A stretch of DNA of 64,000 nt from Fimbriimonadaceae bacterium. GTDB lineage: Bacteria; Armatimonadota; Fimbriimonadia; Fimbriimonadales; Fimbriimonadaceae. Where the stretch lies: NCBI GenBank assembly GCA_019454105.1, contig CP075364.1, positions 1,057,362 to 1,121,361 on the forward strand, read 5' to 3'. Shown in pieces: positions 27,091 through 37,883 of this stretch. The notes beneath the pieces are model-generated. The model saw only the letters and a list, made by a program, of their open reading frames with translations. It did no database searches and was not told where the DNA came from. Both the position numbers and the translations under genes were made by a program. The first letter of the stretch is position 1. Every line of letters starts with the position of its first letter.

Positions 27091-27958
27091 CTGGAACACT
27101 CGCGAGGACCTGCGGCTTTGCCTTGAGAGTCTTCGGGCCGCCCAAGGCGAGGCCGACTTCGAAGTGATCGTGGTGGACAACGCCTCAGCCGACGGATCGG
27201 CCGACATGGTCGAGTCGGAGTTTCCCGAGTTCAACCTTGTCCGGTCTCCTGTGAACCTTGGCTTCACGGGCGGGCACAACCTGGCCCTCGGTCGCCGAGC
27301 GGGCCATCACGCCGCCTTGCTCAATTCCGACACGGTCGTCCATCCCGGGGCGATCGGAAGCTTGGCCAATGTTCTGAGGAACCAGCCCGATGTCGGGATC
27401 GTGGCCCCTAAGCTCCTTAACCCAGACGGAAGCCTTCAATACAGTTGCCGACGATTCCCCAATCCCATCGCGGCCGCCTTCCGGAACACGTTCTTGGGCC
27501 GGTGGTTCCCGAACAATCCCTATGTCCGCGACTATCTGATGAAGGACTTCGACCACTCTTCTCCTCGCGAGGTCGACTGGGTCTCTGGGGCCGCGCTCTT
27601 CATCCGCAACGAGGCCCTGGAAAGGGTCGGCAGACTCGATGAGAGCTTTTTTATGTACTGTGAGGACGTCGATCTTTGTAAGAGGGTCTGGGACGCCGGT
27701 TACCGGGTGGTTTATTGGCCCGAGGCCGTCGTGACCCATGCGATCGGACGAAGCACCGACAAAGCGGCCAACAAAATGATTGTTCGGTTCCATCGCTCGA
27801 TGCTTCGGTATTACCGAAAGCATTTGATCTCTCAGGCTCCGTTCTTGTTGCGCCCCGGCCTGATCGCCTTGGCAGCCCTGGCCCTGAGCGTCAGGGCCGG
27901 GCTGTTCCTCAGCAAAAACGGGATCGACGCCCTAAGGAGGTGGGCCTTTCATCGATGA
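27056..27958 (+). CDS. Family 2 glycosyltransferase
   Basis: A 300-residue paralogue of the preceding gene with the same layout: LSVTICSWNTREDLRLCL, VVDNASADGSADMV, LNSDTVVHPGA (acidic metal motif) and FMYCEDVDLCKRVWDAGYR. The C-terminus has one membrane-associated helix. Successive GT2 enzymes like these usually add sugars one after another to a lipid-linked oligosaccharide. It overlaps the upstream gene by 35 bases and the downstream gene by ATGA, so the three are almost surely co-translated. Confidence 0.92.
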   Translation: MPDFELSVTICSWNTREDLRLCLESLRAAQGEADFEVIVVDNASADGSADMVESEFPEFNLVRSPVNLGFTGGHNLALGRRAGHHAALLNSDTVVHPGAIGSLANVLRNQPDVGIVAPKLLNPDGSLQYSCRRFPNPIAAAFRNTFLGRWFPNNPYVRDYLMKDFDHSSPREVDWVSGAALFIRNEALERVGRLDESFFMYCEDVDLCKRVWDAGYRVVYWPEAVVTHAIGRSTDKAANKMIVRFHRSMLRYYRKHLISQAPFLLRPGLIALAALALSVRAGLFLSKNGIDALRRWAFHR

Positions 27959-30021
27959 CAAGGCCGACTCTCGAACAAGGGCTCTTGGCTTTGGGACTGG
28001 CCCTGGCCGTGGTGATTGGAGGACAGGTCGCCTTGACCCCGCTTCCATGGCCCGCAGGGGGCTGGGCCGAAGGGGCACTGGGCGGACTGGAGCTGCCCCT
28101 GAACGCCCGATGGTTGATCTCGCTCTTCTTGGTGGTCGCGTTCGCCCTGGCCTGGTTTCGTCACCGTATTGTCCAGATCCCCGTCTTGCCAGTCATAGGG
28201 TGTCTGGGCGTGTTCTGCGGGTTGGTCCTGGCTTCGGTGCCGCAGTCGGCGTTCCCGATGGCGAGCTTCCAGTTCGGGCTCGAATGGCTGACCTATGCCC
28301 TCGCTTTGGGGGCGGCGGTGGCTGTCGTCGGGAGAGGAGGCGGCCCGAGAGCCATGGTCTGGATCCTGGTCTCTGCGGCGGTACTTGTGGCGGCCAAGGG
28401 GATCACGGAGTACGCCGGGATGCGGGCCATCGAGCCGACCTACCGGATCTTCGCCGGTTGGAACAATCCTAACGCTCTCGCTGGGATCCTCGTCCTGGCG
28501 TCGCCGTTGGCGACTGGGTTGGCCGTCACGGCTCAGAGGGCCGAGAGGTTCGCGGCCTGGGCTTGCGCCGCTCTCTTGGCCGTCGCGCTCACGCTCACCC
28601 AGTCCAAGGGGGGTCTGGCGTGCTTTTTCCTGGCTCATGGGGCGTTGTTCTTGTTGGCCCTTGTTTGGCGCGCCGGGTGGGGGGCCTTGAGCGCGTTCGT
28701 AGCCCCATGTTTGGCCCTGGCGTTTGGCGGGCTGCTCGCGCTCACCCAACCGACGGCGACCGGGCCGGGGCCCGCTTTCACGAGGCTGGCCCAAGCTGGC
28801 CAGTCTCAAGAGCAGTCGGCAGGGTTCCGGGTTCTTCTCTGGCGCTCTGCGGTCGAGCTGATCCGGGAAAGGCCCCAGGGGATCGGGATCGGGACCTTCC
28901 AGTTTGAGTCCACCCGCCCTGGGCTCACCCCGGCCACCTACCTGGCCCACCAATCCTGGCTTCAGGTCACGGCGGAGACGGGCTGGCTCGGCCTTGTCGG
29001 CTTACTCGCGCTGCTCGGCGTCGCTGGTCGTGCCGCGTTGAGGAGGGTCGCGTCCCTGCCCGCTCCCAGGCGCCTCGTTCTGGCCGGGGTCGTCTCGAGC
29101 CTCGTCGGGGTCGGGGCGAACGGCTTCGTCGAAAGCAACCTCTATTATTTCGGGACGGGAGTGGCGACGTTCGCCCTCATCGGCGTCGCTCTCCTCCTCG
29201 GGACCGACGGCGTCACTCCGGAAATGACGCCAAGACCCTTGCGGCACATTCTAGCGGCGGGAGTCGCGCTTCTCTTCTTCGGAGGCTGGTCGGTCCTGGC
29301 TTCGAGCGAAGTCGCAAGATCCCAGGCCCTTGCCGGGATGGCCGATGGAAAGCCCGCCCCCCCGCCTTCGCTCGTTTGGGACAGCGAGGCTTGGTATCTG
29401 GCCTCGGTTTCGTCAGGTACACCGGAGCTACGGCTCGAACACGCCCGGCAGGCCGCGCGGTGGCAACCGAGCCCCAGGATGCTGCGCTACTTGGCCCGCG
29501 TTCAAACTTCGCAGGGCAGGACAGGAGAAGCGGCGGCGACGCTCCAACAGGCCCTCAAGCGCGACCCGTGCAACCTCCCCGCCCTCCTACAACTCGCCCA
29601 GCTCTATGACCAAGAGGGCGACCGGGCCATGGCCCGAGAGTTCGCCGCCCGTGCCGTCGCCGTCGAGCAAACAACGGTCTTCAAGACACGGGCGATCCCG
29701 GAGTTGATCCCGATTCAGACTTATGACGCGCGCTTGATCCTGGCCAAGGACGAGCCCGATCCTTTGGAAAGGGCCCGTCTCCTGGCCGAAGCCTGCCGCG
29801 GCTTTCTCAGCTTTGTGACGGTCACCGGCCCTCAGATCGAGAGGTTCAGCCGCGCCAACGCTCCGCAAGGATTCTTGGGCAACACGATGGAGACCCTTGC
29901 CGAAGTCAAGGAAAAGGCCAAAGGAGCCGGCAACGAGGCGGCCAAGATTTACCGCAAGCTCGGCAAGGAGGAGGAACGCTCCAAGTTGCTCGAGGAGATG
30001 TCTGTCTTGGGTTCCGACTGA
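27955..30021 (+). CDS. O-antigen ligase/polymerase-like (Wzy_C) membrane protein with TPR tail
   Basis: A 688-residue protein. About 11-12 hydrophobic helices fill residues 1-440, with the Wzy_C-type region around SAGFRVLLWRSAVELIRERP, then GIGIGTFQ (the large loop and its Arg residues). From about 480 onward there are TPR-like repeats (LRYLARVQTSQGRTGEAAAT, LLQLAQLYDQEGDRAMAREF), placed on the cytoplasmic or periplasmic side. Likely to polymerise or ligate the glycan made by the two GT2 enzymes. Starts at ATG overlapping the upstream TGA. The 3' end overlaps the converging PBP2 gene by 73 bases, unusually long. Confidence 0.85.
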   Translation: MTRPTLEQGLLALGLALAVVIGGQVALTPLPWPAGGWAEGALGGLELPLNARWLISLFLVVAFALAWFRHRIVQIPVLPVIGCLGVFCGLVLASVPQSAFPMASFQFGLEWLTYALALGAAVAVVGRGGGPRAMVWILVSAAVLVAAKGITEYAGMRAIEPTYRIFAGWNNPNALAGILVLASPLATGLAVTAQRAERFAAWACAALLAVALTLTQSKGGLACFFLAHGALFLLALVWRAGWGALSAFVAPCLALAFGGLLALTQPTATGPGPAFTRLAQAGQSQEQSAGFRVLLWRSAVELIRERPQGIGIGTFQFESTRPGLTPATYLAHQSWLQVTAETGWLGLVGLLALLGVAGRAALRRVASLPAPRRLVLAGVVSSLVGVGANGFVESNLYYFGTGVATFALIGVALLLGTDGVTPEMTPRPLRHILAAGVALLFFGGWSVLASSEVARSQALAGMADGKPAPPPSLVWDSEAWYLASVSSGTPELRLEHARQAARWQPSPRMLRYLARVQTSQGRTGEAAATLQQALKRDPCNLPALLQLAQLYDQEGDRAMAREFAARAVAVEQTTVFKTRAIPELIPIQTYDARLILAKDEPDPLERARLLAEACRGFLSFVTVTGPQIERFSRANAPQGFLGNTMETLAEVKEKAKGAGNEAAKIYRKLGKEEERSKLLEEMSVLGSD

Positions 30022-31799
30022 ACCTTCACTACGGGACTCCTCGGTTGGATCAGCCAGCGGACGATGCGGCCCGCGATCGGAGCGGCCACTTCTCCGCCGT
30101 GGCCCGCGTTCTCGGCCATGACTGCGACGACGTACTTGGGTTGGTCGAGTGGGGCCATGGCGACAAACCAACTGTGGGTCTCTTTGTCTTTGCGGTTCTC
30201 GGCGCTCCCGGTCTTGCCACCCCACCTGAGCCCAGGGATCCTCGCTCCGGCTCCTGTTCCGGACTCGATCACCGCACCCAGCGAAGTGGCGAGGGTCTCC
30301 CACTGACTGGAAGGCGCCTGTATCTCGCCGAGGACTTGAGACCGAACCGACTCAGGTTTCGAGTCCTCTTGCGGCGAAACGATCGCTCTGGCGATCTTCG
30401 GCTGGTAAGAGACGCCACGGTTGGCGACCATCGCCATCACGCACGCCATTTGCAGCGGGGTGACGGCGAGTTCGCCTTGTCCCACGCCCAGGTTCACGGT
30501 GTCACCAATACTGAACCGTCGCGTGCGGTGCTTGGCCCACCATTCCGGCGTCGGAACAATCCCGGTCGCTTCGGCTGGAAGGTCAAGACCGGTCTTCCTG
30601 CCAAGGCCGAGGATGTCACAGGTCTCGCGGATGGCATCCGGGCCCACCCGGACGGCCATATCGGCGAAATACGCGTTGCACGACTTAGCCATGGCCCTGA
30701 CAAAGGCGACGTCGCCATGGACGCCCATGCATCTGAACTGCCGGTTGCCCATGCGGTATGAGCCGGTGCACCGGGCGTGTCGGTTGGGATCGAACAGACC
30801 CCTCCGCATGGCGCTCAGGGTCGTGACGATCTTGAAGGTCGAACCGGGAGCATAGGCCGCCCCGGCTGCGCGGAAGAACATCGGGTTGGACGGGTCGCTC
30901 CGGAGCCGGTCGAACTCGTCTTGGCTGATGCCACGCAGAAAGAGCGACGCGTCGAACGTCGGGCTGCTCACCATGCATAGGACTTCTCCCGTCTTCGGAT
31001 CGAGAACGACGATCGACCCTCTTCGACCGCTGAGTGAGGCGAGAGCCTCGCGCTGGAGAGCCAGATCGATGCTCAGTACCAGCGTCTTCCCGGGGACAGG
31101 GGCGTCGATCCCGAGCGAGCGGACGGGCCGCCTCTTGACGTCGACCACCATCCTTTCAGAGCCGGGCTGGCCCATCAGCGTGGTCTCATATTCCCGTTCG
31201 AGCCCCTGGATTCCCACATACTCGGCAGGCTTCACTCCTTGGTCTTTAAGACGTTTGACGTCGACGTCGCGAGGTTTGCGGACATAGCCGAGGATGTGGG
31301 CGAGCTCCTTGGGAGCAGCGTAGGACCGCATCGGAAGCGTCTCGACGCCAAAGCCTGGAAGTCGCCATGCCGATTCGGCGATCCGGGTCGCGATTTTGGA
31401 GTCCACTCCGATGTACACGGGCGCGGGGAGTTCTCCGGCATATGCTGCCGCTTGTATCTCAGCCGTAAGCTTCTCGGGTTTGACACCGAGCCAGGAAGCC
31501 ACCTCCTTGACGGCTTCCGGGTGGCGGAGAGCTTCGTGCGGCCTGGCGGTGACGCAAGCCTTGGGGGCAATGTTCGCCACGATCCTGCCAGCTCGGTCGA
31601 CGATCTTTCCTCGGGGCGCCAGTCGCTCAATCTTGGCCCGACCCCCGCTCTCCGACGCCGCAACGAGGTCTTCCGACATCACGACCTGAAGGACCCAAAG
31701 GCGAACCCCATAGAGGAGGAAGACCAAGAGGAGGACAGTCGGCACGACGACGAACCTGAGGTCGAGCGAGCGTTCTTCAGGCGCGTGAATGACGGACAC
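29949..31799 (-). CDS. Penicillin-binding protein 2/3-type transpeptidase
   Basis: A class B PBP of about 616 residues that cross-links peptidoglycan. One N-terminal membrane helix (VVVPTVLLLVFLLYGVRLWVL), a dimerisation domain starting PRGKIVDRAGRIVA, and a transpeptidase domain with active-site Ser near 319 (APGSTFKIV), SCN, and KTG near 527 (GGKTGSAENR). The domain order fits PBP2/FtsI; which of the two is not certain. The start proposed is GTG 31799, two bases after the PBP1A stop with an AGGGG ribosome site, since the ATG codons upstream lie within PBP1A. Last gene of the sigma-factor operon. Confidence 0.9.
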   Translation of the reverse strand: MSVIHAPEERSLDLRFVVVPTVLLLVFLLYGVRLWVLQVVMSEDLVAASESGGRAKIERLAPRGKIVDRAGRIVANIAPKACVTARPHEALRHPEAVKEVASWLGVKPEKLTAEIQAAAYAGELPAPVYIGVDSKIATRIAESAWRLPGFGVETLPMRSYAAPKELAHILGYVRKPRDVDVKRLKDQGVKPAEYVGIQGLEREYETTLMGQPGSERMVVDVKRRPVRSLGIDAPVPGKTLVLSIDLALQREALASLSGRRGSIVVLDPKTGEVLCMVSSPTFDASLFLRGISQDEFDRLRSDPSNPMFFRAAGAAYAPGSTFKIVTTLSAMRRGLFDPNRHARCTGSYRMGNRQFRCMGVHGDVAFVRAMAKSCNAYFADMAVRVGPDAIRETCDILGLGRKTGLDLPAEATGIVPTPEWWAKHRTRRFSIGDTVNLGVGQGELAVTPLQMACVMAMVANRGVSYQPKIARAIVSPQEDSKPESVRSQVLGEIQAPSSQWETLATSLGAVIESGTGAGARIPGLRWGGKTGSAENRKDKETHSWFVAMAPLDQPKYVVAVMAENAGHGGEVAAPIAGRIVRWLIQPRSPVVKVQSEPKTDISSSNLERSSSLPSLR

Positions 31800-31801
31800 G
31801 G

Positions 31802-33994
31802 CTACCCCTGCCGGTGCGCCGTGCATTCGGCTTTGGGCTCTTGGCCCTTTGTAAACGCGCGCTTGATCCGAGACGGGCAATAGGCCGTGGCGCGGCGGCC
31901 GGTATCGACGCAGACCTCGACCGTCAGGTTGTTCTCGGTCTCGGCTGGAGCGGGCTCCAAGGGCGGGACAACTTCAGGGAACGAGGCGTCGTCGCCAGTC
32001 GTCCCGCTGGGCGGTCGATCCTTGGCCGGTTTGTCGTCGATGGGAGGTGCTGTCGTGGCCTCGCGATCGCCGCCGACATCGACGCTCCCCCGGGAGATGA
32101 CCCTGTGCTTTTCACCGAACAGCTTTTGGGCGTGGCTCACGATTTCGGCCCAAAGCGGGGCCACGACCTGTCCGCCCATGACAGAGTCGTCCATCTTTTC
32201 GTAGCGGGTCCTTCCGGCAGGGGTCTTGACCTCGTTGGCCACCCATCCCACGGCGATGAAGCGGTCGGTGTACCCGCAGAACCATGCGTCCTTGTTGTCG
32301 CTCGTCGTGCCCGTCTTCCCTCTGGCGTTCATGACTCGGCCAGCCCGCGTGCCGGTTCCAGAGGTGACGACCGCCCTCAGGGCCCGATCGACGCCTTCTG
32401 CCGCCGTGGAACTCAAGACACGGCGATGGTAGACGGGCTCCGCTTGGAAGATCGGCAAGCCGTCAGGACCAACGATCTTTGAGACCAAGAACGGGGTGAC
32501 ACGGTCGCCGCCAGACTGAAAGACACTGTACGCGGACGCGATCTCGATCGGGTAGACCTCTTCGGCCCCAAGGGCCAGCGTCTGCACAGGGTCAAGTTGG
32601 CTGGTGAACCCAAAGGTGTTCTTGCAGACAGCGATCACGTTCTCTGTCCCGGCCGCACGCTGGGCCCACATGGCTGGGACGTTGATCGACTTGGCAAGGG
32701 CCGTGGTCACCGAGACCGATCCTCCCTTGCCACCACCCCGTATGTATCGTTGAGTCCCTCGGTCGCGGATCAAGAAAGGTTCGTTGCTGACTGAGCCATA
32801 AGGGCTCAGAGCCCCGTATTCGAACGCGGCGGCATAAACGAACGGTTTGAAGGCAGAGCCGGGCTGTCGGAGCCCCTGGGTCACGACGTTGAACTGGTTC
32901 TTCTCGTAGTCGGGTCCACCGACCATCGCGAGGATCCGCCCCGTGTTGTCCATGATCAAGAACGCTGCGGTCGTGATGCGGAGACGCCGGCTCTGCTGCA
33001 CCATCTGCTGGACAGCCTTTTCGGCATAGGACTGCATGTCCGTGTTGATCGTCAGCTCGACCCGGTATCCCCCAGCCGAAAGGTCGATCTCTGGATACTT
33101 GTGCCGGATCCACGACCGGGCCGCGTCGACGACATACGGCGCGAGCCGCTTGCCCGAGATCGCGCGGGGCCGATCCTTCCGTAGCTTGATCTCTTCGGTG
33201 AGCGCTTCCTGGTACTCGGCCTCGCTCATCCAGCCTTCTTCCCGGATGATGCCCAAGACCAAGTCGCGGTTCTCAATCGCCTTCTTGAGGTTGACGAAAG
33301 GATTTTCATCGCTGGGGCGTCGGACGATCCTGGCCAACAGGGCGGCCTCGGACCACGTGAGCTTGTCAAGGCTCTTGCCAAAGTAGACCTCGGCGGCGGC
33401 GGAGACCCCGTACGCCCCGGCACCGAAGTAAACCTGGTTCAAGTAAAGCTCCAGGATCTGATCCTTTGTGAGCTGCCGCTCGATCATGGTCGCGAGCGCG
33501 ATGTCCTGAATCTTTCGGTCCACGGAGCGGGCGGAGCTCGTATAGACCCGTTTGGCGATCTGCATCGTGATCGTGCTGCCACCTTCCGTGCGGCGGCCCG
33601 AAAGCGTCGTCATCAGGGCCCGGCCCATGCCGAACGGATCGACCCCCATATGGTCGTAAAACCGCTTGTCCTCGGCGGCGAGTGTCGCGTGCACGACTTT
33701 CGGAGGAATCTGATCGAACAGGACGTGTTCGCGAAACTCGGTGGCCACCTCTTCCAGAACCTTGCCGTCTCGAGACACGATCTGGCTCGGACGCGTCGTG
33801 AGAGACCTCATGACGTCTGGGAGGTTCGGCACGAGCACGGCGGCCTCGTCCAGTCGCCGGACGGCATAAAGCGATCCGGCTATGAGGCCCAGGTTCGCAA
33901 GGGCCAAAAGGGCACAACCCCCGGTCTTGAGCTTCTTGCTGATCGGCCACTTGGCCCGAGGCCTGACGGCCTGTCTCGCGCTGGCCCGAGTCAC
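31802..33994 (-). CDS. Penicillin-binding protein 1A (bifunctional class A PBP)
   Basis: A 730-residue class A PBP. One membrane helix near residues 27-48. The glycosyltransferase domain (GT51) has AAEDKRFYDHMGVDP (catalytic Glu) and GGSTITMQIAK. The transpeptidase domain has GSAFKPF (Ser near 378), SIN and KTGTTSDNKDAWF (near 557). A Pro/Asp-rich linker leads to a C-terminal three-Cys tail (VEVCVDTG, YCPSRI, AECTAH). It polymerises and cross-links peptidoglycan. GTG start ten bases after the RseB-like gene, so it belongs to the sigma-factor operon. Confidence 0.94.
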   Translation of the reverse strand: MTRASARQAVRPRAKWPISKKLKTGGCALLALANLGLIAGSLYAVRRLDEAAVLVPNLPDVMRSLTTRPSQIVSRDGKVLEEVATEFREHVLFDQIPPKVVHATLAAEDKRFYDHMGVDPFGMGRALMTTLSGRRTEGGSTITMQIAKRVYTSSARSVDRKIQDIALATMIERQLTKDQILELYLNQVYFGAGAYGVSAAAEVYFGKSLDKLTWSEAALLARIVRRPSDENPFVNLKKAIENRDLVLGIIREEGWMSEAEYQEALTEEIKLRKDRPRAISGKRLAPYVVDAARSWIRHKYPEIDLSAGGYRVELTINTDMQSYAEKAVQQMVQQSRRLRITTAAFLIMDNTGRILAMVGGPDYEKNQFNVVTQGLRQPGSAFKPFVYAAAFEYGALSPYGSVSNEPFLIRDRGTQRYIRGGGKGGSVSVTTALAKSINVPAMWAQRAAGTENVIAVCKNTFGFTSQLDPVQTLALGAEEVYPIEIASAYSVFQSGGDRVTPFLVSKIVGPDGLPIFQAEPVYHRRVLSSTAAEGVDRALRAVVTSGTGTRAGRVMNARGKTGTTSDNKDAWFCGYTDRFIAVGWVANEVKTPAGRTRYEKMDDSVMGGQVVAPLWAEIVSHAQKLFGEKHRVISRGSVDVGGDREATTAPPIDDKPAKDRPPSGTTGDDASFPEVVPPLEPAPAETENNLTVEVCVDTGRRATAYCPSRIKRAFTKGQEPKAECTAHRQG

Positions 33995-34004
33995 GTTCAG
34001 TGAA

Positions 34005-34988
34005 TTATGACGACCGGGAGCTTGTTCCGGTGTCCGAATGTTGCACGGTCGCGGCCAAACGTCTCAACGCAGGTTCGGGCACGTCTGCGATCAAGACGAG
34101 GTGGACACCTTCCCTTTCGAACGTATGGGCATTGACGGCCCCGGCAAGACGCTTCAACCTGTCGCCATTCACCGCTTTCCGCATCAGGAAAAGACTCAGC
34201 CTCTGGTTCTCTGACTGATACACCTGCATCAGCGCGGCCGAGTCTCCTTGCCCAAGTTTCCGAACTTGGATCAGGCGCCAGCGCGTGTTGGCCGGGAGCC
34301 GAAGAACGGGGAGGCGCAAGTCCTTCGCTATGTCCGAGAGCTCGTCGGACAGGGTCACGATCCTGGTTCCGGGTCGACCAATCTCGAACGCTCGGGGCCC
34401 GAGGTCCGGGCTGAAGTCGATGCTTGTGTACTCGAAGTATGTGATCCTTTCTCCGGTGGGGTTGAAGGCCTCGAGCTTCAGGACGGCGCCGTGTTCCAAG
34501 TTGACCCAAGCCCTTGCCAAGACCCTCCCACCCTTGGCCCGCGCTTCCAATTGCCTCGTCATGTGGCCAGCCACCTGGGGGCCGGGCACGCTCGTGACTT
34601 GGACGCGGCCCAAAGCCTCCGCGGAGAACAGGCGCATGAGACGCATCAGCGACTCGTGCTCGAATGGCGGCATTTCTCGGATGATGTTCTCTTCTGGATA
34701 GAACTGAAGGCGTCGACGCTCCGACTCGACAGCCACGCTCCCCTTCCGCGACCCATCGACGACTTCCGTCCGCCACCTTCCCGCCATCCGGGCGACCCGC
34801 TCTGTCACGATCCTGCGGCCCTCGGGGGTGACAATCTGGGTCTCGCGGATCCCGGTGTACTTGATCTGGTTCTGCTTAGCCCTGACCGCACGGACGGCGG
34901 CACCCGCCTGCTGGCTCTCAGGCCCCCGTTGGGCCAGTCCGGGTGCGGCCAAGATGGCTGCGAGGACTACACAGCAAACGTTCCTCAC
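34005..34988 (-). CDS. RseB/MucB-like periplasmic sigma-factor regulatory protein
   Basis: A 327-residue protein with a signal peptide (residues 1-19). The N-terminal half is LolA/RseB-like beta sheet (IKYTGIRETQIVTPEGRRIV onward). The C-terminal domain (about 235-320) matches the RseB C-terminal fold: LPANTRWRLIQV, then MQVYQSENQRLSLFLMRK and VHLVLIADVPEPALRRLA. RseB binds the anti-sigma factor and protects it from cleavage until envelope stress. Placement directly after the anti-sigma gene (GTG start overlapping its TGA) supports that role. Divergent from E. coli RseB, so the ligand is unknown. Confidence 0.8.
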   Translation of the reverse strand: MRNVCCVVLAAILAAPGLAQRGPESQQAGAAVRAVRAKQNQIKYTGIRETQIVTPEGRRIVTERVARMAGRWRTEVVDGSRKGSVAVESERRRLQFYPEENIIREMPPFEHESLMRLMRLFSAEALGRVQVTSVPGPQVAGHMTRQLEARAKGGRVLARAWVNLEHGAVLKLEAFNPTGERITYFEYTSIDFSPDLGPRAFEIGRPGTRIVTLSDELSDIAKDLRLPVLRLPANTRWRLIQVRKLGQGDSAALMQVYQSENQRLSLFLMRKAVNGDRLKRLAGAVNAHTFEREGVHLVLIADVPEPALRRLAATVQHSDTGTSSRSS

Positions 34989-35407
34989 AGATCCGGAACA
35001 GGCTCGAACTCTGCCGGAACCCAGTGTCTTCCGTTTTCGCCGAGACCCGCCTCATGGTGGGCTTTCACCAACTTGTGTTCGAAGCTGGTCGAATCGAGCT
35101 CTGGAGCCGCTGAGGGCTTGCCGATTGGATTCATGGTGGCCAGGAACAAGGCCCCCGCCGCCACGCCAGCAAAGCCGATGGCTGGAGCCCACGGTCTTCG
35201 CCGCCAATGTCGAGGTTTGGGCACCGAAGCGGCGAGCCGCTGATTGAGCCGGCTGCGCCAAGCCAGGCTGGGCTCGTCTGCGGCCGCTTGACCGACCCAC
35301 TCGCGAACTGGCCCCTGGCTGTCCAGAGCCTCGTCGAGCCACAGGCTCTCGTCGACCCTGAGAGGCTCCTCGCGCACGAGTTTCTTGATCAGTTCTCGTT
35401 TGTCCAT
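34985..35407 (-). CDS. Membrane-anchored anti-sigma factor (RseA-like)
   Basis: A 140-residue protein between an ECF sigma gene and an RseB-like gene. The cytoplasmic N-terminal region is helical and acidic (ELIKKLVREEPLRVDESLWL), followed by one membrane helix (WAPAIGFAGVAAGALFLATM) and a periplasmic tail of about 50 residues. No zinc-binding HxxxCxxC motif is present. It should sequester the sigma factor until proteolysed. Start: ATG 35407 with AAGGTG five bases upstream; an ATG at 35422 lies inside the sigma gene. Confidence 0.8.
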   Translation of the reverse strand: MDKRELIKKLVREEPLRVDESLWLDEALDSQGPVREWVGQAAADEPSLAWRSRLNQRLAASVPKPRHWRRRPWAPAIGFAGVAAGALFLATMNPIGKPSAAPELDSTSFEHKLVKAHHEAGLGENGRHWVPAEFEPVPDL

Positions 35408-35411
35408 GCCT

Positions 35412-36032
35412 TCACCTTTCATTCAAATAATCTCCTAGGGCCCTTTGCAGGTGGGCCCTGGCCAAAAAGAGGCGGCTCTTGACGGTTCCGACGGGGATAT
35501 CGACTGTCTGAGAGATCTCTTCATAGCCCATGTCCTCCCGGTCGTGGAGCAAGAGGACGCTTTTCAGCTTTTCACTCATGGTGTCAAGCGCTTTGTCAAG
35601 AACGATCATGAGTTCCGCTTTGACGGCGGCGTCCGCCGGGTCCCACCGGACGTCGGGAAAGTCGATCGTGTCTTCCGTCTGTGGATCTGTTTCGATGCTT
35701 GTCTGGCCCGGGGTCCGAGCTCTCTTCCTGGCCTTGTCCACGCACAAATTGTGGGCGATGGTGAAGAGCCAGCTTCGCAGTGACGAGCGGCCGTCAAAGC
35801 CGTCGATGCCTTGGAACGCCCTGAGAAACACCTCTTGGGTGAGGTCGAGGGCATCGTCCTCATCGCGGAGCATCCGGCGAGCAAAGCCCAAAACCCGGCC
35901 TTGGTAGGCGTCGACGATCTTGGAAAAAGCGTCCAGATCACGCTTCTTGCTCTTGTCCAAGAGAACCTTTTCGTGGATCGACTCGATTGGCCCCTTGGTC
36001 TTCACCCTGATCGCTCCCAAGGCTGTGTTCAC
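35412..36032 (-). CDS. ECF RNA polymerase sigma factor
   Basis: A 206-residue sigma-70 family ECF factor. Region 2 is at residues about 40-110 (RMLRDEDDALDLTQEVFLRA and SLRSWLFTIAHNLCVDKARK), and region 4 at about 150-203, ending GYEEISQTVDIPVGTVKSRL. Close in form to RpoE/SigE-type factors controlled by RseA-like proteins. First gene of the operon sigma, anti-sigma, RseB, PBP1A, PBP2. GTG start. A candidate ECF-type promoter (36069-36042, minus strand) suggests autoregulation. Confidence 0.93.
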   Translation of the reverse strand: MNTALGAIRVKTKGPIESIHEKVLLDKSKKRDLDAFSKIVDAYQGRVLGFARRMLRDEDDALDLTQEVFLRAFQGIDGFDGRSSLRSWLFTIAHNLCVDKARKRARTPGQTSIETDPQTEDTIDFPDVRWDPADAAVKAELMIVLDKALDTMSEKLKSVLLLHDREDMGYEEISQTVDIPVGTVKSRLFLARAHLQRALGDYLNER

Positions 36033-36041
36033 GACACTATC

Positions 36042-36069
36042 AATGACGCAAGCCCCGGTCTGGAGTTCA
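36042..36069 (-). promoter_or_regulatory. Candidate ECF-type autoregulatory promoter
   Basis: On the minus strand TGAACT (36069-36064), 16 bases, GTCATT (36047-36042), ending nine bases before the sigma-factor GTG. The GAACT and GTC elements with this spacing resemble ECF promoters such as those of RpoE. A single site, so tentative. Confidence 0.35.
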
Positions 36070-36140
36070 CTCGCTCGGCCTGCCAGCCTCGCCAGGTTTC
36101 CAGACCCGGGCCTTTAGTCTCTGAAGCGAAGGTTCCGCCT

Positions 36141-36659
36141 TCAGAAGCGGATGCCGGCGTAGAGCCCAAGCGCGTTGAGCCTGCTCTCGTTGCTTCCGAA
36201 ATACTTGGCTTCGAAGAAGATCGGCGTGCCGCCCCGCTCGATGTCGTAGCCAGCACAGAGCGTGAACGTGAAGTCCTGGTCTCCGCTGCTCCCGTTCCTG
36301 CTAGGAACCCGAGTGAACCCGACTCCAGCTCCAACCCCGTAGTAAATCTGGTTGGCCCTTCCGATGTAGCTGACGGTCACGGGGACGTTGCTGAAGCTTC
36401 CCTTTCCGTAATAGTCGACGGAAAGCTGAAGGGAGGCGCTGTGCCCGGGCCTTTGGTTTCCGAAGCTAAGGTCACGGAGCTTGTAGTCGCCTCCGACGCC
36501 GAACCAGTTCTGGCCCTCGACGCGCTTGGCTGTGCCGTTCGTGACGATCACGATGCCGCCGCGCAAGGAAAGGCCGATCGGCTTTTCGTATTGGGCATAG
36601 GTTCCGGCGACCGGAAGCGCCGCGAGCATCGTACATGCGATTCTGACAACGTTGTTCAT
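36141..36659 (-). CDS. Outer-membrane-type beta-barrel protein
   Basis: A 172-residue protein with a signal peptide (cleavage near TYAQ, residue 22). The mature part alternates polar and hydrophobic residues in about eight strands (GHSASLQLSVDYYG, YYGVGAGVGFTRV, FTLCAGYDIE, PIFFEAKYFG) and ends LYAGIRF, the aromatic C-terminus recognised by BAM. This predicts a small OmpA/OmpX-sized barrel in an outer membrane. It sits just upstream of the envelope-stress operon but has its own ribosome site (AAGGATCAAGG) and a TAAGAT box. Confidence 0.75.
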   Translation of the reverse strand: MNNVVRIACTMLAALPVAGTYAQYEKPIGLSLRGGIVIVTNGTAKRVEGQNWFGVGGDYKLRDLSFGNQRPGHSASLQLSVDYYGKGSFSNVPVTVSYIGRANQIYYGVGAGVGFTRVPSRNGSSGDQDFTFTLCAGYDIERGGTPIFFEAKYFGSNESRLNALGLYAGIRF

Positions 36660-36752
36660 CCTTGATCCTTATTGACGGCGACGCCGACGATGGGGCACCG
36701 ACCCGCCTATCTTAGCATTCTGACGGCCCAGGCGCCCAAGAGGATTCTCTGT

Positions 36753-37883
36753 TCAAGAGCCCTCGCCGCGCGCCGCCTCGACCAAGAGCCGATAGGCCAA
36801 ACTCGCTGTCGCGACCAAATCGGCCCGGCTCACGAACTCGTCATGAGTGTGGATCTTCTCCATTCCCGTCGCGACCACGATCGTCGGCACTCCCTTGGCA
36901 TTGAAGACGTTCGCATCGCTCCCGCCGAGGGTGGTGCGCAACGCGCCGTCATATCCGAGGGATGCTGCCGCCCTTTGCGCGACACGGACGACATGGGCGT
37001 CCTCTGGAACGTGGTAGGAGTCGTAGTGACGGCGGTGGTCGATCTCGACCGTCGCGCCCCACTCGCTCGCCGCCCTCTCGAACTCTTTGATTATCCCGTC
37101 GACCACGGCGTCGAGTTCCTTGACGTCCGTGCTCCGCGCCTCGCCCCGCAGGACGACAAAGGGGCACACGACATTGACGGCGGTTCCGCCCTCCACGACG
37201 CCGAAATTGCACGTGGTCTCGGGGCCGATCCTGCCGACCTTGATCCGGCTCAAGGCATCGGCGGCCACCATGATGGCGTTCACTCCCTTTTCGGGATCTT
37301 TTCCGGCGTGGGCCGGCTTCCCTATCACGGTCACGTCCAGTTTGTCGTGCGTCGCCGTCCGGTTCACGAACGTGCCAACGGGCGGGCCAGTGTCGAGGAC
37401 ATAACCAAAGTCGAGCCCCAAAGACGCGGTGTCCAGGGCAGCCGCGCCTTTCAGGCCGATCTCTTCGGCGCAGGTGAAGAGGAGAAAGACGTCGCCGTGC
37501 GGTTCGCCTGAATCCATCAACATCTGGACGGCTTCGATCGCAGGGGCCATGCCTGCTTTGTCGTCCGCTCCGAGGATCGTGTCGCTCGCCGAAAACAGGA
37601 CGCCGTCCCGCTCTTCGATCTCCAGCCCCTCCGTCGGCTCGACCGTGTCAAGGTGCGCGCTCAGAAAGACCGTTGGGGCCCCGGGCTTGTTGCCTGGCAA
37701 CCGAGCCAGCAAGTTGTTGGCATCGCCCCCGATCTTCGACCCCGCGTCGTCCTCCCACACTTCGAGGCCTATCGCCTCTAAGCGTCGGCGGACTTCTACG
37801 ACGCACTCTCCTTCCTGCAACGCCGGGGCGTTGATCATGCACAAGTCGCGAAAGAGCGCGACGAGCCTCTCCTCGTTCACCAT
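36753..37883 (-). CDS. M20-family metallopeptidase (peptidase T-like)
   Basis: A 376-residue M20/M25 dinuclear zinc peptidase. Zinc ligands and catalytic residues: SAHLDTVEP (His, Asp), LGADDKAG (bridging Asp), TCAEEIGLKG (catalytic Glu pair), VLDTG, and HTHDEFV near the C-terminus. The dimerisation domain (about 180-290) is intact. It most resembles the PepT/YqjE di- or tripeptidase group. The -10 box TAAACT (37893-37898, minus strand) ends nine bases before the ATG. Confidence 0.92.
   Translation of the reverse strand: MVNEERLVALFRDLCMINAPALQEGECVVEVRRRLEAIGLEVWEDDAGSKIGGDANNLLARLPGNKPGAPTVFLSAHLDTVEPTEGLEIEERDGVLFSASDTILGADDKAGMAPAIEAVQMLMDSGEPHGDVFLLFTCAEEIGLKGAAALDTASLGLDFGYVLDTGPPVGTFVNRTATHDKLDVTVIGKPAHAGKDPEKGVNAIMVAADALSRIKVGRIGPETTCNFGVVEGGTAVNVVCPFVVLRGEARSTDVKELDAVVDGIIKEFERAASEWGATVEIDHRRHYDSYHVPEDAHVVRVAQRAAASLGYDGALRTTLGGSDANVFNAKGVPTIVVATGMEKIHTHDEFVSRADLVATASLAYRLLVEAARGEGS

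Follow-up and report, generated by a model that had tools for sequence, protein, structure and literature searches.

The question raised by a 64,000-nucleotide stretch of DNA from a Fimbriimonadaceae bacterium (contig CP075364.1; hereafter the window) is whether an envelope-stress sigma factor of the phylum Armatimonadota controls the synthesis of the cell wall through the genes that lie directly behind it. Five leftward genes in the window encode an extracytoplasmic function (ECF) sigma factor, a membrane anti-sigma factor, a homolog of RseB/MucB and two penicillin-binding proteins (PBPs), PBP1A and PBP2 (Table 1). We consider it likely that they constitute an RseB-type envelope-stress operon under its own control, into which the main peptidoglycan synthases were captured, with wall building probably being one of the direct outputs of this alarm system. 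The source genome (G000) is a single contig of 2.74 Mb, and the named relatives of its PBP1A come from Fimbriimonadaceae and other Armatimonadetes metagenome-assembled genomes.

The five-gene module, its promoter and its predicted regulon

The tight packing described in an earlier note on this DNA is borne out by the coordinates of the open reading frames (ORFs), which are separated by a gap of 4 nt, an overlap of 4 nt (GTGA) and gaps of 10 and 2 nt, in the order of transcription. The unit ends at PBP2, because the stop codon of this gene falls inside a convergent O-antigen-ligase/TPR gene (27715-30021, forward strand), which its 3' end overlaps by 73 nt. That the five genes form one gene module is supported, and we infer that a single message runs across the sigma factor, anti-sigma factor, RseB, PBP1A and PBP2 genes. 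A scan of 29500-37000 with the sigma-70 consensus, which is uninformative for Armatimonadota, returned no promoter. Translation of the sigma factor may start at GTG 36032, 12 nt past the -10 box, or at an alternative GTG at 36005 with a Shine-Dalgarno-like GGGAG; an ortholog (L058) has an N-terminal length equal to a start at 36032, and both starts remain candidates.

Judged by its family profile and predicted fold, the third protein is an RseB/MucB homolog, as the earlier note had proposed. Searched alone, it gives a weak Pfam match under the Pfam cut-off (MucB_RseB_C, E 0.097). A profile of 39 orthologs matched Pseudomonas MucB (6in8, E 3e-11) and E. coli RseB (2p4b, E 5e-6), and 33 of these orthologs matched Pfam MucB_RseB (best 3.6e-9), with the C-terminal domain being matched by 13. 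The AlphaFold2 model (predicted local distance difference test, pLDDT, 92.6) has the two domains expected of RseB/MucB, namely a LolA-like N-terminal domain and a C-terminal domain, and its top 15 Foldseek matches in the PDB were all RseB/MucB structures (about 310 columns, E 2e-14), followed by LolA proteins; at a TM-score of 0.5 and a root-mean-square deviation of about 9, these matches do not fix the relative placing of the two domains. The N-terminus carries a hydrophobic stretch, MRNVCCVVLAAILAAPGLAQ, that reads as a signal peptide. In addition, the RseB gene adjoins the sigma and membrane anti-sigma genes in all loci read from the family of the window (f1) and from family f5, and in distant families.

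The anti-sigma factor of the window alone has no Pfam match. Alignment of 33 orthologs revealed the motif EPSLAWRSxLNERL with an invariant W-R, a single transmembrane segment and a periplasmic tail, and the AlphaFold2 model, of moderate confidence (pLDDT 76), places four N-terminal helices (residues 8-16, 23-35, 37-47 and 53-66) ahead of one transmembrane helix (about 83-97) and a periplasmic helix (111-129). A fold search with this model against the PDB gave no match. Four N-terminal helices, one membrane-spanning helix and a periplasmic part are the layout of RseA-type class I (ASDI) anti-sigma factors, of which this protein may be one.

Autoregulation of the sigma operon through its own promoter is strongly supported by comparison of the upstream regions. 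Of 44 loci, 24 carry the exact motif TGAAC-N16-CGTC 5' of the sigma gene, against a Markov expectation of 0.29 (maximum 3 in 300). Any other spacer accounts for 0-3 of the 44, and T precedes GAAC in all 24 although this position was outside the search pattern. With one mismatch allowed at spacer 16, the motif was found in 56 of 64 loci from many Armatimonadota families (expectation 1.9), the variants being mostly CGTT or CGTA, and spacer 17 accounts for several further loci in the same search. Distant families have the exact motif just 5' of the sigma gene in 10 of 12 loci, and in G127, a genome with the PBP genes linked, the sigma promoter reads TGAACCTTTACCGTTTCGATCCGTT. Across 877 kb of DNA from the neighbourhoods, 25 of the 28 forward-strand matches sit just 5' of the sigma gene, and none lies 5' of the outer-membrane protein (OMP), PBP1A or PBP2 genes. 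The promoter that the earlier note had placed at 36069-36042 is the same site as the one in Table 1 and is real by comparative evidence, and its suggestion of positive feedback gains strong support from the one spacing kept across the phylum. G000 encodes 18 ECF-like genes, and none of the others listed has the motif just upstream among the listed matches.

Over the whole genome, TGAAC-N16-CGTC has 60 matches, mostly within genes, against 19 for the reversed pattern, and candidates for the regulon were kept only if the motif was conserved in relatives. Conservation of the motif upstream of a DUF1800 gene and a secreted LTXXQ/Spy-like gene outlines a small regulon. The former is probably a regulon member on the strength of its upstream sequence, since 19 of 30 relatives share the exact motif there (expectation 0.018) and no other spacer occurs except for 3 cases at 17; the motif usually lies 35 nt ahead of the start codon, so that the message would be nearly leaderless. 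This predicted regulon might give an initial clue to what a DUF1800 protein does. Upstream of the LTXXQ/Spy-like gene the motif is found in 8 of 30 relatives, including genomes of families f2 and f3 (expectation 0.036). Spy-type chaperones are envelope-stress proteins. These two targets make the ancestral regulon look like one of general envelope stress, to which the PBPs would have been added in f1 and f5. A DUF1501 gene (L114:241-1476) and a PAF-acetylhydrolase-like gene (L165:535-1491) carry the motif just before a possible start, and we do not claim them as regulon members.

Linkage to the peptidoglycan synthases across relatives

Sigma factor, anti-sigma factor, RseB, PBP1A and PBP2 follow one another in about 35 loci of f1, representing some 30 genera and read from both sides. 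PBP1A identity among these loci is 37-58%, and the recurrence of the order at such identity is far beyond chance. The same order is kept in five of the six genomes examined from f5, a neighbouring family, and the gap between RseB and PBP1A in linked loci is usually too short to hold a separate promoter comfortably. In G010 (L065) and G012 (L075), the sigma, anti-sigma, RseB and PBP1A genes stand together and PBP2 does not adjoin PBP1A, and in two further linked loci the contig stops inside PBP1A. The PBP1A gene of G032 (L083:9017-10917) is split into two overlapping frames, by a frameshift or a sequencing error. Within the family, therefore, the PBPs do adjoin the sigma module in relatives, one of the points on which the earlier note had let its proposal stand or fall.

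The join is broken in six f1 genomes (G013, G021, G023, G027, G031 and G164) and in G040 of f5, the last judged from the PBP side, and it is absent at all 7 loci of families f2 to f4 and at all 12 distant-family loci. The triad of sigma factor, anti-sigma factor and RseB with a TGAAC-N16-CGT promoter is found throughout Armatimonadota. Read from this distribution, the join to PBP1A-PBP2 is derived. A tree of sigma factor and RseB, built by a quick method and with many weak forks, implies six changes between linked and detached states, a count that is blind to gain versus loss. Of 13 PBP1A regions retrieved from across the order, 12 keep the PBP1A-PBP2 pair itself, and in G023, G027 and G040 the WZY-GT2-GT2 genes still lie downstream of the detached pair. 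As the PBP block is stable in detached genomes, it is the triad that moved away. No TGAAC-N15-17-CGT occurs within 700 nt 5' of PBP1A in any of 14 detached loci (16 were scanned, two of which are in fact linked). Distant PBP1A matches outside Armatimonadota have flanks without sigma, anti-sigma or RseB matches and without the motif.

The two enzymes carry considerable weight in the genome, which encodes three proteins with a transpeptidase domain in all, the third (C1:1146881) presumably being FtsI. Its sole class A PBP is the PBP1A of the operon, and its sole MrdA-type protein is the PBP2 there (TIGR03423 pbp2_mrdA, 527 bits against a cut-off of 455); a single class A PBP is likewise found in 14 of 15 related genomes with a match. 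If expression of PBP1A and PBP2 depends on the sigma promoter, the cell may be unable to do without the sigma factor. Alternatively, transcription reading through from PEPT and OMP, which lie upstream on the same strand at gaps of about 100 nt, could secure a basal supply.

A further difference separates linked and unlinked families. We compared the anti-sigma gene of the window (34985-35422) with those of L093, L098, L100, L101, L103, L333-L343 and L348. The zinc motif HxxxCxxC is present in families f2 to f4 and in each of the 12 distant families compared, with zf-HC2 matched in the two that were scanned, and is missing only from f1 and f5, the two families with the PBP join. Where an f1 genome has a broken join, its anti-sigma factor still has no zinc site, in keeping with a linked ancestor. 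Class I anti-sigma factors with and without zinc are known to mix across groups (PMC7406223), so the loss of zinc is in itself not exotic. We tentatively suggest, while putting the chances somewhat below even, that a phylum-wide RseB-type module underwent a single rewiring in the common ancestor of two Fimbriimonadales families. There it would have joined the only class A PBP and PBP2, its anti-sigma factor would have lost the zinc site, and the sigma factor would have turned from an emergency regulator into a permanent and perhaps essential homeostat for the synthesis of the wall.

Proposed function and competing explanations

By analogy with RseA/RseB, the membrane anti-sigma factor would hold the sigma factor at rest while the RseB homolog shields the anti-sigma factor in the periplasm. 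Envelope damage would then free RseB, allowing a site-1 (HtrA/DegS-like) and subsequently a site-2 (RseP-like) protease to cut the anti-sigma factor. The released sigma factor would read TGAAC-N16-CGTC at 36069-36045 and transcribe the genes from sigma factor to PBP2 as one message, together with the DUF1800 and LTXXQ/Spy-like genes elsewhere. Extra PBP1A and PBP2 might thereby repair the wall, and extra anti-sigma factor and RseB might restore the brake. The genome encodes site-2-protease-like proteins of the M50 type as well as two HtrA-like serine proteases with strong matches, which are candidates for cutting the anti-sigma factor; the cascade itself, its signal and the extent to which the PBPs would be induced are hypothetical.

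The earlier note had also predicted a stress signal from the cell wall, which the comparison leaves as one possibility among several. Outside f1 and f5 the triad never adjoins PBPs in the loci read, PBPs detached from it lack the motif (0 of 14), and the LTXXQ/Spy-like and DUF1800 targets suggest general envelope stress. Taken together, these observations favour reading the PBPs as an output that was acquired, and not as evidence of what is sensed. A wall-damage signal fits the data and is not favoured over outer-membrane or lipoprotein stress. The Pfam model of LptD found no match in the genome, but none in a Bacteroides control either, so this result does not bear on lipopolysaccharide, which along with misfolded outer-membrane proteins activates the known RseB-controlled sigma-E pathway.

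Several points weigh against a stress operon that extends to the wall synthases. The linkage has been lost several times and is hence not obligatory, and the lack of the motif at detached PBP1A genes indicates that the core regulon of the order does not include the PBPs. Promoters may also lie within the RseB or PBP1A reading frame, as the promoter scan used the sigma-70 consensus only, and another of the 18 ECF-like sigma factors could recognise the same motif. One rival is a neutral explanation, in which the triad and the PBP pair came to be adjacent by rearrangement and were kept so by inertia, with the PBPs running on internal promoters of their own and without stress control. Such a history would agree with a join confined to two families and broken about five or six times, with the existence of detached PBP1A-PBP2 pairs that lack the sigma motif, and with the conservation of much of the surrounding order (WZY, GT2, PEPT, OMP) as well. 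However, the short same-strand junction between RseB and PBP1A persists in about 35 loci from some 30 genera at low protein identity, and transcription from a strong autoregulated promoter would need to be stopped between RseB and PBP1A, where no terminator-like site is present. We therefore regard mere neighbourhood as unlikely.

A PBP might instead serve as the sensor, contacting the anti-sigma factor or RseB and reporting wall inhibition in the manner of PbpP in the sigma-P system of B. thuringiensis, in which case the operon would be a signal chain and not a regulon. The adjacency of PBPs to the sigma module would be in keeping with this, but the PBPs here are the housekeeping PBP1A and PBP2 and not an accessory PBP, the operon already contains a sensor in RseB, and the triad appears, judged by its conserved promoter, to work in many lineages without adjacent PBPs. 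We consider a sensory role of the PBPs highly improbable, and an RseB-type stress operon with the wall synthases among its outputs remains our preferred interpretation.

Known systems and neighbouring genes

The operon shares with rpoE-rseA-rseB(-rseC) of E. coli and algU-mucA-mucB of P. aeruginosa the order of an ECF sigma factor, a single-transmembrane anti-sigma factor and an RseB/MucB homolog, and in addition a promoter that, here by comparison, is autoregulated, as well as the presence of genes for M50 and HtrA-like proteases. It differs from them in belonging to another phylum, in having PBP1A and PBP2 next in line instead of rseC or mucC/mucD, and in an anti-sigma factor too divergent for a Pfam match. 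The E. coli sigma-E promoter is of the type GGAACTT...TCTGA, unlike the TGAAC-N16-CGT found here, which resembles the TGAAaC...CGTa/c type of B. subtilis sigma-W and sigma-M; the NCBIfam model closest to the sigma factor is likewise SigW, with a score under the cut-off. To our knowledge, the sigma-W and sigma-M systems of B. subtilis have no RseB homolog and no adjacent PBP1A or PBP2.

The sigma-P/RsiP/PbpP system of B. thuringiensis (PMC8092216) is similar in placing an ECF sigma factor and anti-sigma factor beside a PBP, in its autoregulation and in its relation to the wall; unlike the operon described here it lacks RseB, and its PbpP, an accessory PBP and sensor of beta-lactams, is encoded outside the sigP-rsiP operon. 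In S. coelicolor, sigma-E is also tied to PBPs, controlling several of their genes, class A included, during envelope stress (PMC6767563). Those genes are scattered over the genome, whereas PBP1A and PBP2 here lie inside the sigma operon, and sigma-E is governed by a two-component system without an anti-sigma factor, with the sigE promoter not being a sigma-E target (PMC6767563). In the literature, with most subscription papers beyond the reach of the search, we found no description of an RseB-type sigma operon containing a housekeeping class A PBP and PBP2, and no paper joining RseB, anti-sigma factors and Armatimonadetes, which is weak evidence given that limited coverage. RseB-type control is best known as a guardian of the outer membrane in Proteobacteria. 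In Armatimonadota it is phylum-wide and has a defined, conserved promoter, and one group wires it directly to its sole class A PBP and PBP2. The related genomes with and without the join thus provide a natural experiment on the coupling of stress control to wall synthesis.

Table 1. Coordinates of the operon, its promoter, the adjoining gene and the two distal candidate targets
Feature	Position	Strand	Basis
ECF sigma factor, 206 aa	35412-36032	-	Sigma70_r2 E 7e-22, Sigma70_r4_2 E 3e-14
Membrane anti-sigma factor without zinc motif	34985-35407 (longest ORF opens at 35422)	-	Ortholog alignment, AlphaFold2 model
RseB/MucB homolog, predicted secreted, two domains	34005-34988	-	Family profile, predicted fold
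Class A PBP (PBP1A family)	31802-33994	-	Transgly 1.6e-59, Transpeptidase 3.6e-31
Class B PBP, PBP2/MrdA, elongation type, last gene	29949-31799	-	PBP_dimer and Transpeptidase; TIGR03423
Predicted ECF promoter TGAAC-N16-CGTC of the sigma gene	36045-36069	-	Comparative motif evidence
Small outer-membrane beta-barrel-like protein, 5' of the sigma gene, outside the operon count	36141-36659	-	Synteny, C-terminus
DUF1800 gene	L291:1501-2985 = G000:C1:2248175-2249659	-	Motif conserved upstream
LTXXQ/Spy-like gene	L155:819-1478 = G000:C1:2048380-2049036	-	Motif conserved upstream

Among the neighbours, the convergent O-antigen-ligase/TPR gene with two GT2 genes behind it is an arrangement common to many relatives. 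The OMP-like gene lies on the same strand 5' of the sigma gene in most members of the window's family; its product has no Pfam match and ends in YxGxRF/L, with a final F in 18 of 31 sequences.

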